Shown here: positions 18,124 to 52,867 of the stretch, piece after piece | How positions within the stretch are numbered: position 1 is the stretch's first letter | How the letters are laid out: the number at the start of each line of letters is the position of its first letter | Assembly: GCA_022824465.1 (NCBI GenBank) | Contig: JAJDZV010000008.1 | Span: 1-64,000 of the forward strand | Direction of reading: 5' to 3' | Length of the DNA: 64,000 nucleotides | DNA from: Anaerolineae bacterium | Lineage (GTDB): Bacteria; Chloroflexota; Anaerolineae; Aggregatilineales; Phototrophicaceae | Made by a program: the position numbers and the translations under genes | The notes under the pieces: model-generated | The model's input: only the letters and a program-made list of their open reading frames with translations | Database searches by the model: none | Told to the model about the DNA's origin: nothing

Positions 18124-18666
18124 CCTTTGCGGCTTGCTCGGTTGCCCAGATTATACGCAAGCGATAATAGCGCATCGGATTGCCGCTGCCCAATCATTGA
18201 CGTGAACAAATGGTCGCCTATTGCCAGCTGAAGTCTGCTAGACTGCTAAACATGAACCCCAAATCGCCCCACATCACCAAGCCAAAGTCATGCTGTTTCT
18301 ATACCGCAACACAACCTTTATCGCCCGAGATCCGTAATTTGCTTGCCGAGGCAACGCTGTATCGATACCGTATCGATAGGAATAGCCTTGAATGGCTTAT
18401 TCTGATATGTATCGTCTATACTGCCAATGTCTATTTGACAGTCTGGACTCGTCTTTTTGCATACAATTCACCTTCTCTGCTTTTATGGGACTTCGGCGTG
18501 AAGCGACGGGAACAAGCGCCAAGACGCCTTTGCCGCCTGCCTCGGCCAGACGGCCGTCCGTAAGCGGCGCTTGCGTCAGTCGGCGCTATTGGAAGTCGCT
18601 CGTTTGCTCGTTATACTTGTCCTCGTTGCGCTTAACGGAAGATTTACGCCTGAAAGGACCTGACTG

Positions 18667-47767: not shown

Positions 47768-48481
47768 CTATTCCGCGAGGTGCTCCAGCGGGTCCGGCTT
47801 CGGCAGAGGCTTGACGAATCCAGCGACGAATATCGTCAGCACACCGGTCAGGAAGCCGCCGATATGCGCCCAATGCGCCACATCGGTCTCCACGCCGACC
47901 CATCCCAGAAACTGCAGAGCGTCCATGAGCAGCCAGTAGCCGAGGAAGACCACCGCCGGTAGCTTGATCGTCCAGACGAAGGGACGGAAGAAACCCAGCA
48001 TCGTGCGTACCTTGGCGTTCGGCTTCAGCGCCAGGAAGCCGCCCATGATGCCCGCGATCGCGCCGCTGGCGCCTATGACGAGGCCCGTGTCCGAGACCGT
48101 GCAAACCGTGTTTCCCAGCAAGACATGCGCTACGGTCGCCGCTGCGCCGAAGCCTAAGTATGCCGCCACATATTTGAGGCTGCCCAGGTAGCGCTCCACC
48201 AAGCCGCCAAAGAGGAACAGGAACCACATATTCCCGAGCGCATGCGCCGCGCTGGCATGCAGGAAGAGACTGCGGAATGTATCCAGGCTGGTTGTCGCAA
48301 AAGATTGCTCGCCAATCTTGCAGACTTCCAGCCCGTAGTTCTGCAGCGCCGACTTGAGATAGCCGTCGCCTTTGGCGTCAACCGAGAGCTCCCAGAGGAA
48401 CACCAGCAGGTTGACAGCGATGATTACAATGGTCGCTTTTGGGACCGCCCGGTCGCGCCCGACAATGTTGATGGGAAACAT
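47768..48481 (-). CDS. Rhomboid family intramembrane serine protease
   Basis: 'FLHASAAHALGNMWFLFLFGGLVE', 'VIGASGAIAGIMGGFLAL' (GASGA), 'VAHWAHIGGFLTGVL'. Confidence 0.93.
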   Translation of the reverse strand: MFPINIVGRDRAVPKATIVIIAVNLLVFLWELSVDAKGDGYLKSALQNYGLEVCKIGEQSFATTSLDTFRSLFLHASAAHALGNMWFLFLFGGLVERYLGSLKYVAAYLGFGAAATVAHVLLGNTVCTVSDTGLVIGASGAIAGIMGGFLALKPNAKVRTMLGFFRPFVWTIKLPAVVFLGYWLLMDALQFLGWVGVETDVAHWAHIGGFLTGVLTIFVAGFVKPLPKPDPLEHLAE

Positions 48482-48559: not shown

Positions 48560-49249
48560 TTACCCTCGCGGAATGCGCGGCGGCATGATGAAAAATGACA
48601 GAAGAAATATCAGCGCCAGCCCGGTGATGAAGCCGCCGACATGACCCCAATGAACATTTATGCGCGGCGCGACCGACCCCACTTGGTAGAAGAACTGCAG
48701 GAAGAACCAATAGATTAGGTATACCCAGGCGGGTACATTGACATCGTAGTTGAACACCTTAAGGATGACGATCTTCGACTTGATGCGGTCGGTGGGAAAC
48801 AAAAAGAGGAAAGCGCCGATGATGCCGGAAATCGCGCCGCTCGAGCCAATCATGTACAGCGGCTCGGCGCAATTGACGCTATCAAATAGCAGATGGCCCA
48901 AGTGTCCGCCGAAACCAACCAACATATAGAAAGCCAGAAAACGCAGGTGGCCCAGATGCTCTTCAATCCGTGAGCCGAATACGTAGAAGATTATGATGTT
49001 AGACGTGAGATGCACAAAACTCATGTGGAGAAAGATGCTGCGAATGCCATCGAGCAAAGTCGCCGCCAGCGGCTGAACGCGCACCGCGCAGATATCCAGC
49101 GCATAGTTGCGGTAGACCTCTTCCAGCGACAAGCCGCCAAGAAATGCGAATAACACTACAAAGGCAAAGGACAGCACATTGGCCGCCGTGACGAAGAAGG
49201 CCACGTATGGTCGATAATTCGTCGTGCCGACGATCTTATAGGGGATCAT
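48560..49249 (-). CDS. Rhomboid family intramembrane serine protease (tandem paralog)
   Basis: 'FLHMSFVHLTSNIIIFYVFGSRIE', 'MIGSSGAISGIIGAFL' (GSSGA), 'VHWGHVGGFITGLA'. Confidence 0.92.
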   Translation of the reverse strand: MIPYKIVGTTNYRPYVAFFVTAANVLSFAFVVLFAFLGGLSLEEVYRNYALDICAVRVQPLAATLLDGIRSIFLHMSFVHLTSNIIIFYVFGSRIEEHLGHLRFLAFYMLVGFGGHLGHLLFDSVNCAEPLYMIGSSGAISGIIGAFLFLFPTDRIKSKIVILKVFNYDVNVPAWVYLIYWFFLQFFYQVGSVAPRINVHWGHVGGFITGLALIFLLSFFIMPPRIPRG

Positions 49250-50604: not shown

Positions 50605-50631
50605 TTGCAACTGCCGCGGACCTGTGATAAT
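50605..50631 (+). promoter_or_regulatory. Candidate sigma70-type promoter for the leader ORF/JAMM operon
   Basis: TTGCAA (50605-50610), 15-nt spacer, extended -10 TGTGATAAT (hexamer GATAAT 50626-50631). Predicted start ~50638, just before ATG 50641. Confidence 0.45.
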
Positions 50632-50640
50632 CTCACCGGC

Positions 50641-50739
50641 ATGACCCTTAATCTTCAATTGGAAGTCTTGAATCAGCCCTGTTGTTGTCTCAGCAGCGAC
50701 GAAGTGGCGCCTGCCCGCGTCGGGAATGAGGTTGTCTAA
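50641..50739 (+). CDS. Candidate polycysteine leader peptide (MTLNLQLEVLNQPCCCLSSDEVAPARVGNEVV)
   Basis: 32-codon ORF with three consecutive TGT Cys codons (50680-50688), followed by a terminator-like hairpin and a sulfur-transfer operon. Confidence 0.55.
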   Translation: MTLNLQLEVLNQPCCCLSSDEVAPARVGNEVV

Positions 50740-50772
50740 AGCTGAGGCTGAACAAGCTAAGCCCAAGCGGAC

Positions 50773-50805
50773 AAGAGCCAGCCCCAGCGGTTGGCTCTTT
50801 TGATT
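50773..50805 (+). terminator. Intrinsic terminator/attenuator-like hairpin in the leader
   Basis: AAGAGCCAGCC-CCAGC-GGTTGGCTCTT (11-bp stem with one G-T wobble, 5-nt loop) followed by TTGATTATT; 24 nt before the next ATG. Confidence 0.65.
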
Positions 50806-50828
50806 ATTCGGCGAGAAACGGAGCAGCA

Positions 50829-51311
50829 ATGAGCCGCATATACCTAAGCGAATCACAGAACCGGCGCATATCCGCGCACTTGGAGTCCGCCTATCCCCAC
50901 GAGGGCGCTGGCTTTCTACTCGGTCATTTCGTCGATGGGTATATCGCCGCCACTGATGTGGTGATTGACGACGTCATTCCTTCCGAAAACTCCAGCGCGG
51001 AAGACGAGCGGCATCACCGTTTTGTGATGACGCCGCAAGCCTGGATGCGCCTGGAAGACGAAGCAGACAGACGGGGCTTGAGACTGGTCGGCTGCTTTCA
51101 TAGTCACCCGGACGCGCCCGCGATTCCCTCAGCCTTTGACCGTGAACACGCGCTGCCAAACTTCCTCTACATGATCGTTTCAGTCAACGCGGGGCGGGCA
51201 GGGGAACTGCGTTCCTGGGAGATCTCGCGTGACAACCAGGTCGAGCACATTTGCGCGGTCGTCAGCGACGACGAATGGCGAAAGATAATGAAGTGGCAGA
51301 CTGTCAATTAG
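50829..51311 (+). CDS. M67 family JAMM/Mov34 metallopeptidase (Mec-like)
   Basis: JAMM motif 'LVGCFHSHPDAPAIPSAFDREHA' (HxHPxxPxxPSxxD) and 'PHEGAGFLLG'. Confidence 0.92.
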   Translation: MSRIYLSESQNRRISAHLESAYPHEGAGFLLGHFVDGYIAATDVVIDDVIPSENSSAEDERHHRFVMTPQAWMRLEDEADRRGLRLVGCFHSHPDAPAIPSAFDREHALPNFLYMIVSVNAGRAGELRSWEISRDNQVEHICAVVSDDEWRKIMKWQTVN

Positions 51312-51329: not shown

Positions 51330-51605
51330 ATGGCGAAAATCCGTATTCCGACGCCGCTACGCGCCTTCACCGGTGGCGCGGCCGACATTGATGTCGCTGG
51401 CGCTACCGTGGGCGCGGCGCTTTCGAGCCTTGTCGAGCAACACCCGGAATTGCGCGACCACTTGTTTGAAAAGGACGAACTGCGCAGCTTTGTCAACGTA
51501 TTCATCGGCGACGAAGATATTCGCTTCTTGCAAGGCTTGGATACTGAGATCGCCGCTGGCGAAAGTCTGCGAATCATCCCAAGCATCGCCGGCGGGCGCG
51601 GCTAG
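51330..51605 (+). CDS. ThiS/MoaD/CysO-like ubiquitin-fold sulfur carrier ending in AGGRG
   Basis: 'KIRIPTPLRAFTGGAADIDVAGATVGAALSSLVEQHPELRDHLFE...FVNVFIGDEDIRFLQGLDTEIAAGESLRIIPSIAGGRG'. Confidence 0.9.
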   Translation: MAKIRIPTPLRAFTGGAADIDVAGATVGAALSSLVEQHPELRDHLFEKDELRSFVNVFIGDEDIRFLQGLDTEIAAGESLRIIPSIAGGRG

Positions 51606-51622: not shown

Positions 51623-52867
51623 ATGAACAAAATTCATGCGCGCTTGGCCGACCTCAGCCACGACGAGGTACGCCGCTACAGCCGCCACGTAATCATGCCC
51701 GAAGTCGGCATGGAAGGGCAGCGCCGCTTGAAAGCCTCATCCGTCCTGCTAATTGGCACGGGAGGCTTGGGCAGTCCGCTGGCGCTATACCTCGCGGCCG
51801 CCGGCATCGGGCGCATCGGCTTGGTCGACTACGACGTGGTAGACTTCACCAATCTACAACGCCAAGTCATCCACGGGGTCAGCACCGTCGGCCTCTCCAA
51901 ACTGGATAGCGCCGCGACCCGCATGCTCGATCTCAATCCCGACATCGTTGTGGTCAAGTATAACGAGCCGCTCACCTCGGAGAATGCCCTGCGCATATTC
52001 AGCCAGGATTGGGACATCGTCATCGACGGCACCGATAACTTCCCTACGCGCTATCTTGTGAATGATGCCTGTGTCAAGCTTGGCATTCCAAACGTATACG
52101 GCAGTATTTTCCGCTTCGAAGGCCAACTCAGCGTCTTCTATGGCGAGAAAGGTCCCTGCTACCGCTGCATGTTCCCCGAGCCGCCGCCACCGGGCTTGGT
52201 TCCCAGTTGCGCGGAAGGCGGCGTCCTGGGCATTCTGCCCGGCACCATCGGCACCATGCAGGCGACCGAAGCAATCAAGCTGCTGCTTGGCATTGGCGAT
52301 CCCATGATCGGCCGGATGATGCTCTACGATGCGCTGGAATTGAGCTTCCATACCATCAAAATCCGCAAGGATCCCACGTGCCCGGTTTGCAGTGTCCCCA
52401 AAGAAGACATCGTGCTGATAGACTACGAGCAATTCTGCGGCATGCCGGCGCATGACCACAGCGAATACAGCACGGTCGAAGACGCTGACGATATCAGTAT
52501 CAAATCGGTCTCCGTTCATGATATGCGCGCGGCGCTGGAAAATGGCGATGACGTGGTCGTCATAGACGTCCGCGATCCACATGAATGGGACATCAGCGCG
52601 ATCGACGGCGCCCTCCGCATTCCCAAACCGGATATCCAGTTGGCCAAGAACGGAATCCAGGCCGGGCGCAAGCTATGGGAAGAGACCGTCTTGCTCGAGA
52701 TTCCCAAAGACAAGACGCTCTACGTCCATTGTCGCTCGGGAAAGCGCAGCGCCGATAGCATCGCCTACTTGTCGGAAATCGGCTATGACCTGGACAAGAT
52801 GTACAACGTTGAAGGCGGCATCCTGGCTTGGGCTGACGAAATCGACCCGGAGATGCCGAAGTATTAA
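51623..52867 (+). CDS. MoeB/ThiF-like adenylyltransferase with C-terminal rhodanese domain (MoeZ-like)
   Basis: 'VLLIGTGGLGSPLALYLAAAGIGRIGLVDYDVVDFTNLQRQ', zinc CxxC pairs ('CYRC','CPVC'), rhodanese 'VHCRSGKRS'. Confidence 0.95.
   Translation: MNKIHARLADLSHDEVRRYSRHVIMPEVGMEGQRRLKASSVLLIGTGGLGSPLALYLAAAGIGRIGLVDYDVVDFTNLQRQVIHGVSTVGLSKLDSAATRMLDLNPDIVVVKYNEPLTSENALRIFSQDWDIVIDGTDNFPTRYLVNDACVKLGIPNVYGSIFRFEGQLSVFYGEKGPCYRCMFPEPPPPGLVPSCAEGGVLGILPGTIGTMQATEAIKLLLGIGDPMIGRMMLYDALELSFHTIKIRKDPTCPVCSVPKEDIVLIDYEQFCGMPAHDHSEYSTVEDADDISIKSVSVHDMRAALENGDDVVVIDVRDPHEWDISAIDGALRIPKPDIQLAKNGIQAGRKLWEETVLLEIPKDKTLYVHCRSGKRSADSIAYLSEIGYDLDKMYNVEGGILAWADEIDPEMPKY

Follow-up and report, generated by a model that had tools for sequence, protein, structure and literature searches.

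The attenuators of the trp, his, leu and ilv operons combine control codons, a leader stop and an antiterminator/terminator switch set by the position of the ribosome, and in the textbook cases their leaders carry a Shine-Dalgarno sequence. Leaders with runs of Cys codons have been described in mycobacteria, where leaderless polycysteine short ORFs reportedly function as attenuators that respond to cysteine (Canestrari et al. 2020, doi 10.1111/mmi.14498) and where leaderless polycysteine uORFs include one before cysA2 (Shell et al. 2015, PMC4633059). The mycobacterial cys leader peptides were described without a conserved terminator (PMC1262725), and the mycobacterial leaders have been discussed in terms of translation attenuation (PMC13236596). 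In Rhodobacterales, a predicted Cys uORF with a terminator, uORFC-8-2, precedes cysS (PMC8632094).

Here we describe an element in a 64,000-nucleotide stretch (hereafter the window) of an Anaerolineae (Chloroflexota) genome that is very probably a ribosome-mediated transcription attenuator, with a leader peptide inferred to be translated from a leaderless transcript. As in the mycobacterial leaders, a leaderless-looking short ORF in which Cys codons cluster lies upstream of a sulfur/cysteine operon, and the case of cysA2 (a thiosulfate sulfurtransferase gene) parallels a second Chloroflexota copy before a rhodanese gene. Unlike the mycobacterial leaders, the Chloroflexota element, from another phylum, keeps an intrinsic terminator and an antiterminator, and in many relatives from outside the genus its clusters combine Cys with Met. 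The consecutive Cys codons stand near the end of the short ORF in the rhodanese leader alone, at codons 13-15 of 20; those of the JAMM leader are codons 14-16 of 32. Because of the conserved terminator, we do not class the element as a mycobacterial-type leader and regard it as similar only in its working. Like uORFC-8-2, it has Cys codons in tandem within a uORF and an intrinsic terminator after it, but uORFC-8-2 is alphaproteobacterial, has two Cys codons and controls cysS, whereas the Chloroflexota elements precede JAMM and rhodanese genes. The control codons, leader stop and position-dependent switch of the trp, his, leu and ilv attenuators are all represented; the difference is a leader that looks leaderless.

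Results

Organization of the locus

The element sits between a divergent citrate synthase gene and an operon encoding a JAMM peptidase, a ThiS/SAMP-like sulfur carrier and a MoeZ-type E1/rhodanese protein (Table 1). This combination of JAMM, sulfur carrier and MoeZ-type E1 is also found in SAMP/ThiS-JAMM-E1 systems and in CysO-CysM-Mec+, the cysteine route of actinobacteria; a cysM-like gene precedes JAMM in some relatives within the order, but none is adjacent to it in the window. The sulfur carrier ends in GG-R-G, with the Gly-Gly not terminal, and the adjacent JAMM peptidase may trim this tail before E1 activation. Elsewhere in the window, two adjacent minus-strand genes (47768-48481 and 48560-49249) look by eye like rhomboid-family membrane proteases, each with a GASGAI-like or GSSGAI motif.

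Table 1. Positions in the window of the putative attenuator and of the operon that follows it.
Feature	Position	Strand	Remarks
-35 element TTGCAA	50605..50610	+	TTGC(C/A/G) kept in genus alignment
Extended -10 TGATAATCT; hexamer TAATCT at 50628-50633, preceded by TG	50625..50633	+	7 nt upstream of leader ATG
Leader-peptide ORF, leaderless-looking, 32 codons, MTLNLQLEVLNQPCCCLSSDEVAPARVGNEVV then stop	50641..50739	+	orthologous leaders in relatives
Control codons Cys-Cys-Cys (TGT TGT TGT)	50680..50688	+	Cys cluster kept, rest drifts
Antiterminator 5' side (GGG..TG..TTGTCT)	50722..50737	+	overlaps last leader codons and stop; predicted to pair with 50769-50785
Antiterminator 3' side (GGACAA..CA..CCC)	50769..50785	+	overlaps terminator 5' arm; predicted fold
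Intrinsic terminator hairpin AAGAGCCAGCC-CCAGC-GGTTGGCTCTT	50773..50799	+	kept with base-pair-keeping changes
T-rich tail TTGATTATTC	50800..50809	+	T run starts inside 3' arm: CTCTTTTGATT
Shine-Dalgarno GGAG of JAMM gene	50820..50823	+	outside hairpin and T-rich tail
JAMM/Prok-JAB peptidase (PF14464), first gene of operon	50829..51311	+	
ThiS/MoaD/SAMP-like sulfur carrier (PF02597), C-terminus ...GGRG	51330..51605	+	
E1-like adenylyltransferase with C-terminal rhodanese domain, MoeZ type (PF00899 + PF00581)	51623..52867	+	

A sequence-only reading of this region had proposed the 32-codon ORF with its three consecutive TGT codons, and its coordinates check out. The Cys codons occupy codons 14-16, in mid-ORF, and the stop codon lies at 50737-50739. 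When both strands of the whole 64 kb were scanned for ORFs of 8-45 amino acids with an ATG or GTG start, TANNNT 5-8 nt upstream and at least three Cys in eight codons, this ORF was the sole strict match. A pattern match at position 18252 (MNPKSPHITKPKSCC...) was dropped: its ORF has at least 50 codons and no dense Cys cluster.

The same reading had placed an extended -10 before the leader. That element stands, with its hexamer reassigned: alignment in register with relatives gives TAATCT (TGnTAATCT), not GATAAT, and this makes the leaderless reading tighter. The spacer between TTGCAA and the hexamer is 17 nt in the window sequence, and the 7-nt gap from TAATCT to the ATG places the expected transcription start at the ATG or within ~1 nt of it. 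That gap is exactly 7 nt in 49 of 60 JAMM leaders and the TG of the extended -10 is present in 56, while a Shine-Dalgarno-like motif for the leader ATG was found in none of the 60. A TA-like signal ~10 bp before a start most probably indicates a leaderless gene (PMC3160421), a rule that makes the leaderless reading well founded in the absence of data on the transcription start site (TSS). Promoter spacing and the missing Shine-Dalgarno motif thus fit a leaderless start, which we infer from sequence only.

Conservation of the leader and terminator

Near relatives of the JAMM protein are found in Chloroflexi/Anaerolineae MAGs, several of which, judged from their names, appear to come from sponge projects. 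Leaders in these relatives were scored as ATG ORFs of 8-60 codons that carry at least three Cys in eight codons and have TANNNT 5-9 nt upstream of their start. Such a leaderless-spaced Cys-cluster ORF was present directly upstream in 60 of 80 named Anaerolineae JAMM loci; the same criterion gave four matches on both strands of 493 kb of other sequence, or 0.0025 per 310 nt. Several of the remaining 20 loci have weaker variants, in which the cluster has two Cys or the TANNNT is missing. Of 27 JAMM loci sampled from other parts of Chloroflexota, none had a strict leader within 1.5 kb upstream, so the trait looks clade-limited. Across the leaders the Cys run is kept and the remaining predicted peptide drifts.

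The predicted 11-bp stem and 5-nt loop with a T-rich tail was confirmed (5' arm 50773-50783, 3' arm 50789-50799), 29 nt separating the hairpin from the JAMM ATG. Although it is the best of four terminator-like sites on both strands of a 2.6-kb region, shuffled sequences give 2.4. By itself the hairpin is unremarkable and it is its conservation that is notable; the case therefore rests on comparison. Any stem of 6 bp or more followed by a T-rich tail was counted as a terminator. One occurs in the interval from the leader stop to the JAMM gene in 54 of the 60 loci, compared with 0.85 expected from dinucleotide shuffles. The stems vary by lineage with their pairing kept (AGAGCCAACC/GGTTGGCTCT in L116, AGCCGACC/GGTCGGCT in L131 and GAGAGCTAACC/GGTTAGCTCTT in L080). 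Inside the window's genus, the hairpin is nearly invariant in the consensus fold, and RNAalifold on the genus alignments recovered the terminator only, with little formal covariation because both arms hardly vary.

The sequence-only reading had named loss of the Cys codons or hairpin upstream of orthologous JAMM-ThiS operons as grounds for its refutation. Both are kept.

A few leaders depart from this plan. In a close relative (G027; L003 on G027:C7, and L052), the promoter and first half of the leader are retained, but all sequence starting with the Cys codons and ending with the terminator is gone, fusing what remains to the JAMM ribosome-binding region; unless this is an assembly fault, it is a natural constitutive version. 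One leader (L028, G019) stops early, at 22 codons, with the downstream antiterminator sequence retained, and in another (L022, G028) the ATG reads AAG. These two could be decaying or re-set attenuators.

Predicted alternative folds depend on ribosome position

To represent a stalled ribosome, we masked the transcript as far as 10 nt beyond the final Cys codon and truncated it immediately behind the terminator 5' arm. The window then folds at -28.6 kcal/mol, with the two antiterminator sides paired. Masking to just past the stop codon leaves -2.8, and adding the 3' arm yields the terminator at -18.4. With the ribosome at the stop in these worked folds, the antiterminator cannot form and the terminator does. 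The alternative antiterminator for which the sequence-only reading had suggested a search is thus present, and is kept as a pairing, in silico only.

With the ribosome placed on the Cys codons, we then estimated how likely the leader 3' end is to capture the terminator 5' arm, and compared the mean probability with that in shuffled sequences. Capture was 0.62 vs 0.33 for genus JAMM leaders (n=31, p=1.9e-9; direction holds in 30/31), 0.60 vs 0.32 outside the genus (n=32, p=2.5e-7; 27/32) and 0.62 vs 0.22 for the rhodanese leaders described below (n=18, p=7.6e-6; 18/18). Since the sequences are related, these p-values are optimistic and overstate independence. Duplex energies between the leader 3' end and the terminator arm gave a weak signal for the genus (mean z -0.33 and -0.38 in its two sets), and the wider set alone gave a clear one (mean z -1.19); the ensemble test, which includes ribosome masking, is the more telling of the two. 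In genus leaders the antiterminator 5' side encodes a conserved peptide end, RVGxxAV and stop, so that conservation of the peptide end is probably, by inference, conservation of RNA.

These computations show the anatomy, the conservation of its parts, the mutual exclusion of the two folds and their dependence on ribosome position. The leaders (60/80), terminators (54/60) and position-dependent antiterminator strongly support the attenuator proposed earlier, with the response to Cys remaining inferred.

These results bear on whether stalling at Cys codons could instead alter access to the downstream start without any termination of transcription, as has been proposed for mycobacteria. Descriptions of the polycysteine leaders there present them as translation attenuators (PMC13236596) with no conserved terminator (PMC1262725), and the Chloroflexota leaders likewise look leaderless. 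Here, however, 54 of the 60 leaders have a terminator downstream, the JAMM Shine-Dalgarno lies clear of hairpin and tail, and capture of the terminator arm varies with ribosome position; we consider translation attenuation improbable.

Cys and Met codons are interleaved outside the genus

In 34 leaders outside the window's genus, Met accounts for 52 of the 87 residues (60%) that are not Cys but lie inside the cluster, bounded by its first and its last Cys, as against 34 of 794 elsewhere (Fisher p=1.6e-37, uncorrected for relatedness). Clusters containing Met occur in 29 of the 34 (CMCMC, MCMCMCMCC, MCCMMMCC), and alternating control codons (CMCMC) lie upstream of JAMM in L079, L085, L100, L106 and others. 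In the window's genus, Met fills only 1 of 32 such positions. The simplest reading of the mixture suggests that Cys/Met attenuators may sense both sulfur amino acids jointly; a local RNA-structure effect is not excluded.

A Cys- or Cys/Met-rich nascent peptide might also stall the ribosome through oxidation or metal binding, in which case the signal would be redox or metal rather than Cys-tRNA. Cys clusters could bind metal or form disulfides, and the CMCMC-type mixtures outside the genus would suit copper or redox chemistry. Neither the spacing of the Cys residues (CCC, CxCC, CMCMC, MCCMC) nor the rest of the peptide is conserved, however; in many leaders the cluster falls within ~20 residues of the N-terminus and so would still be inside the exit tunnel; and the downstream genes are sulfur-transfer genes. 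Arrest of this kind therefore seems very unlikely to us.

A second leader and a putative regulon

A search combining the promoter pattern with Cys codons revealed a second leader in the same genome, MSKQKTRGALQSCCCMASDF and stop (G000:C5:152390-152446; L132:1516-1578), before a rhodanese/3-mercaptopyruvate sulfurtransferase-like gene and a SufE/CsdE-like gene. It was found in all 30 genus loci examined, with 19-20 codons and the extended -10 exactly 6 nt before the ATG. Among 29 leaders of 20 codons, Cys occupies codons 13, 14 and 15 in 22, 29 and 27, respectively, and both TGT and TGC are used at codon 13. A hairpin with a T run lies 3' of the ORF, and in most of these leaders GCGGGU just past the stop is complementary to ACCCGC in the terminator 5' arm and loop. 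Versions of the rhodanese-type leader occur in other families (L248, L249, L264 and L269-L272). In another family of the order, a Cys/Met leader, MNTMRQNCMCCMCEKRGR, is found upstream of a cysM-JAMM pair (L044, at 733-789; L045; L046).

By these sequence patterns, the putative attenuator belongs to a small regulon. The search relied on promoter patterns and chosen gene families, and the list is incomplete, as copies may have been missed. Most other pattern matches in the genome look like chance or sit inside other genes. No such leader was seen at any of ten PALP-family loci fetched from the same genome, and its cysS has no ATG polycysteine leader, only one short TTG frame with two Cys.

The idea that nothing is regulated here, the predicted hairpin merely ending stray transcripts in the gap that separates the JAMM operon from the divergent citrate synthase gene and the ORF being fortuitous, gains something from the intergenic position and from a window terminator count near chance (4 found, 2.4 expected), but sequence comparison already contradicts it, with 0.0025 chance matches expected per locus against 60/80 observed and a separate second copy before rhodanese-SufE, and we regard it as practically untenable.

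Discussion

The attenuator we propose would work as follows. RNA polymerase would start at the leader ATG or within a base of it. Initiation by 70S ribosomes on a 5'-terminal AUG is established for leaderless mRNAs generally, and a 70S ribosome loading on this AUG would arrive at the three Cys codons. With ample Cys-tRNA it would proceed to the stop codon and cover the leader 3' end; 50773-50783 would then pair with 50789-50799, and transcription would stop before the JAMM gene. With charged Cys-tRNA scarce, it would stall at 50680-50688 and leave 50722-50737 free for 50769-50785, a pairing predicted to occupy the terminator 5' arm and let polymerase continue into JAMM-ThiS-MoeZ. The cell thus probably turns the operon on when cysteine is short. 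The leaderless start, translation, termination and the role of Cys as signal are inferences, there being no transcription start, ribosome or expression data.

We found no report of cysteine-directed attenuation in Chloroflexota in the literature searched, as judged by title and abstract. The best Rfam match in the region, among families that include T-boxes and riboswitches, was an unrelated sRNA below its gathering score (E=0.33), and four related loci gave no match. What appears new is that, in Chloroflexota, a leader inferred to be leaderless is joined to an intrinsic terminator/antiterminator in front of JAMM/rhodanese operons, and that relatives use mixtures of Cys and Met codons. A broader hypothesis, to which we give an even chance, is that this Anaerolineae clade has its own sulfur regulon of leaderless transcription attenuators (on JAMM-carrier-E1, rhodanese-SufE and, in some families, cysM-JAMM), with an origin separate from that of the polycysteine leaders in mycobacteria. 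In this regulon, Cys codons interleaved with Met codons would read the charging of both tRNAs at once, and Cys-only control would be derived in the window's genus.

The findings extend cysteine-directed attenuation, known from mycobacteria, to Chloroflexota, and offer a clear example in which a leaderless leader peptide apparently drives the attenuation of transcription; the ribosome must load on a 5' AUG with nothing in front of it, early enough to set the pace of the polymerase. With Cys and Met codons mixed, the idea that two charged tRNAs are sensed jointly can be put directly to the test. In uncultured bacteria, the putative attenuators tie JAMM/sulfur-carrier/E1 operons and rhodanese-SufE operons to the supply of cysteine, which helps to assign these operons a function.
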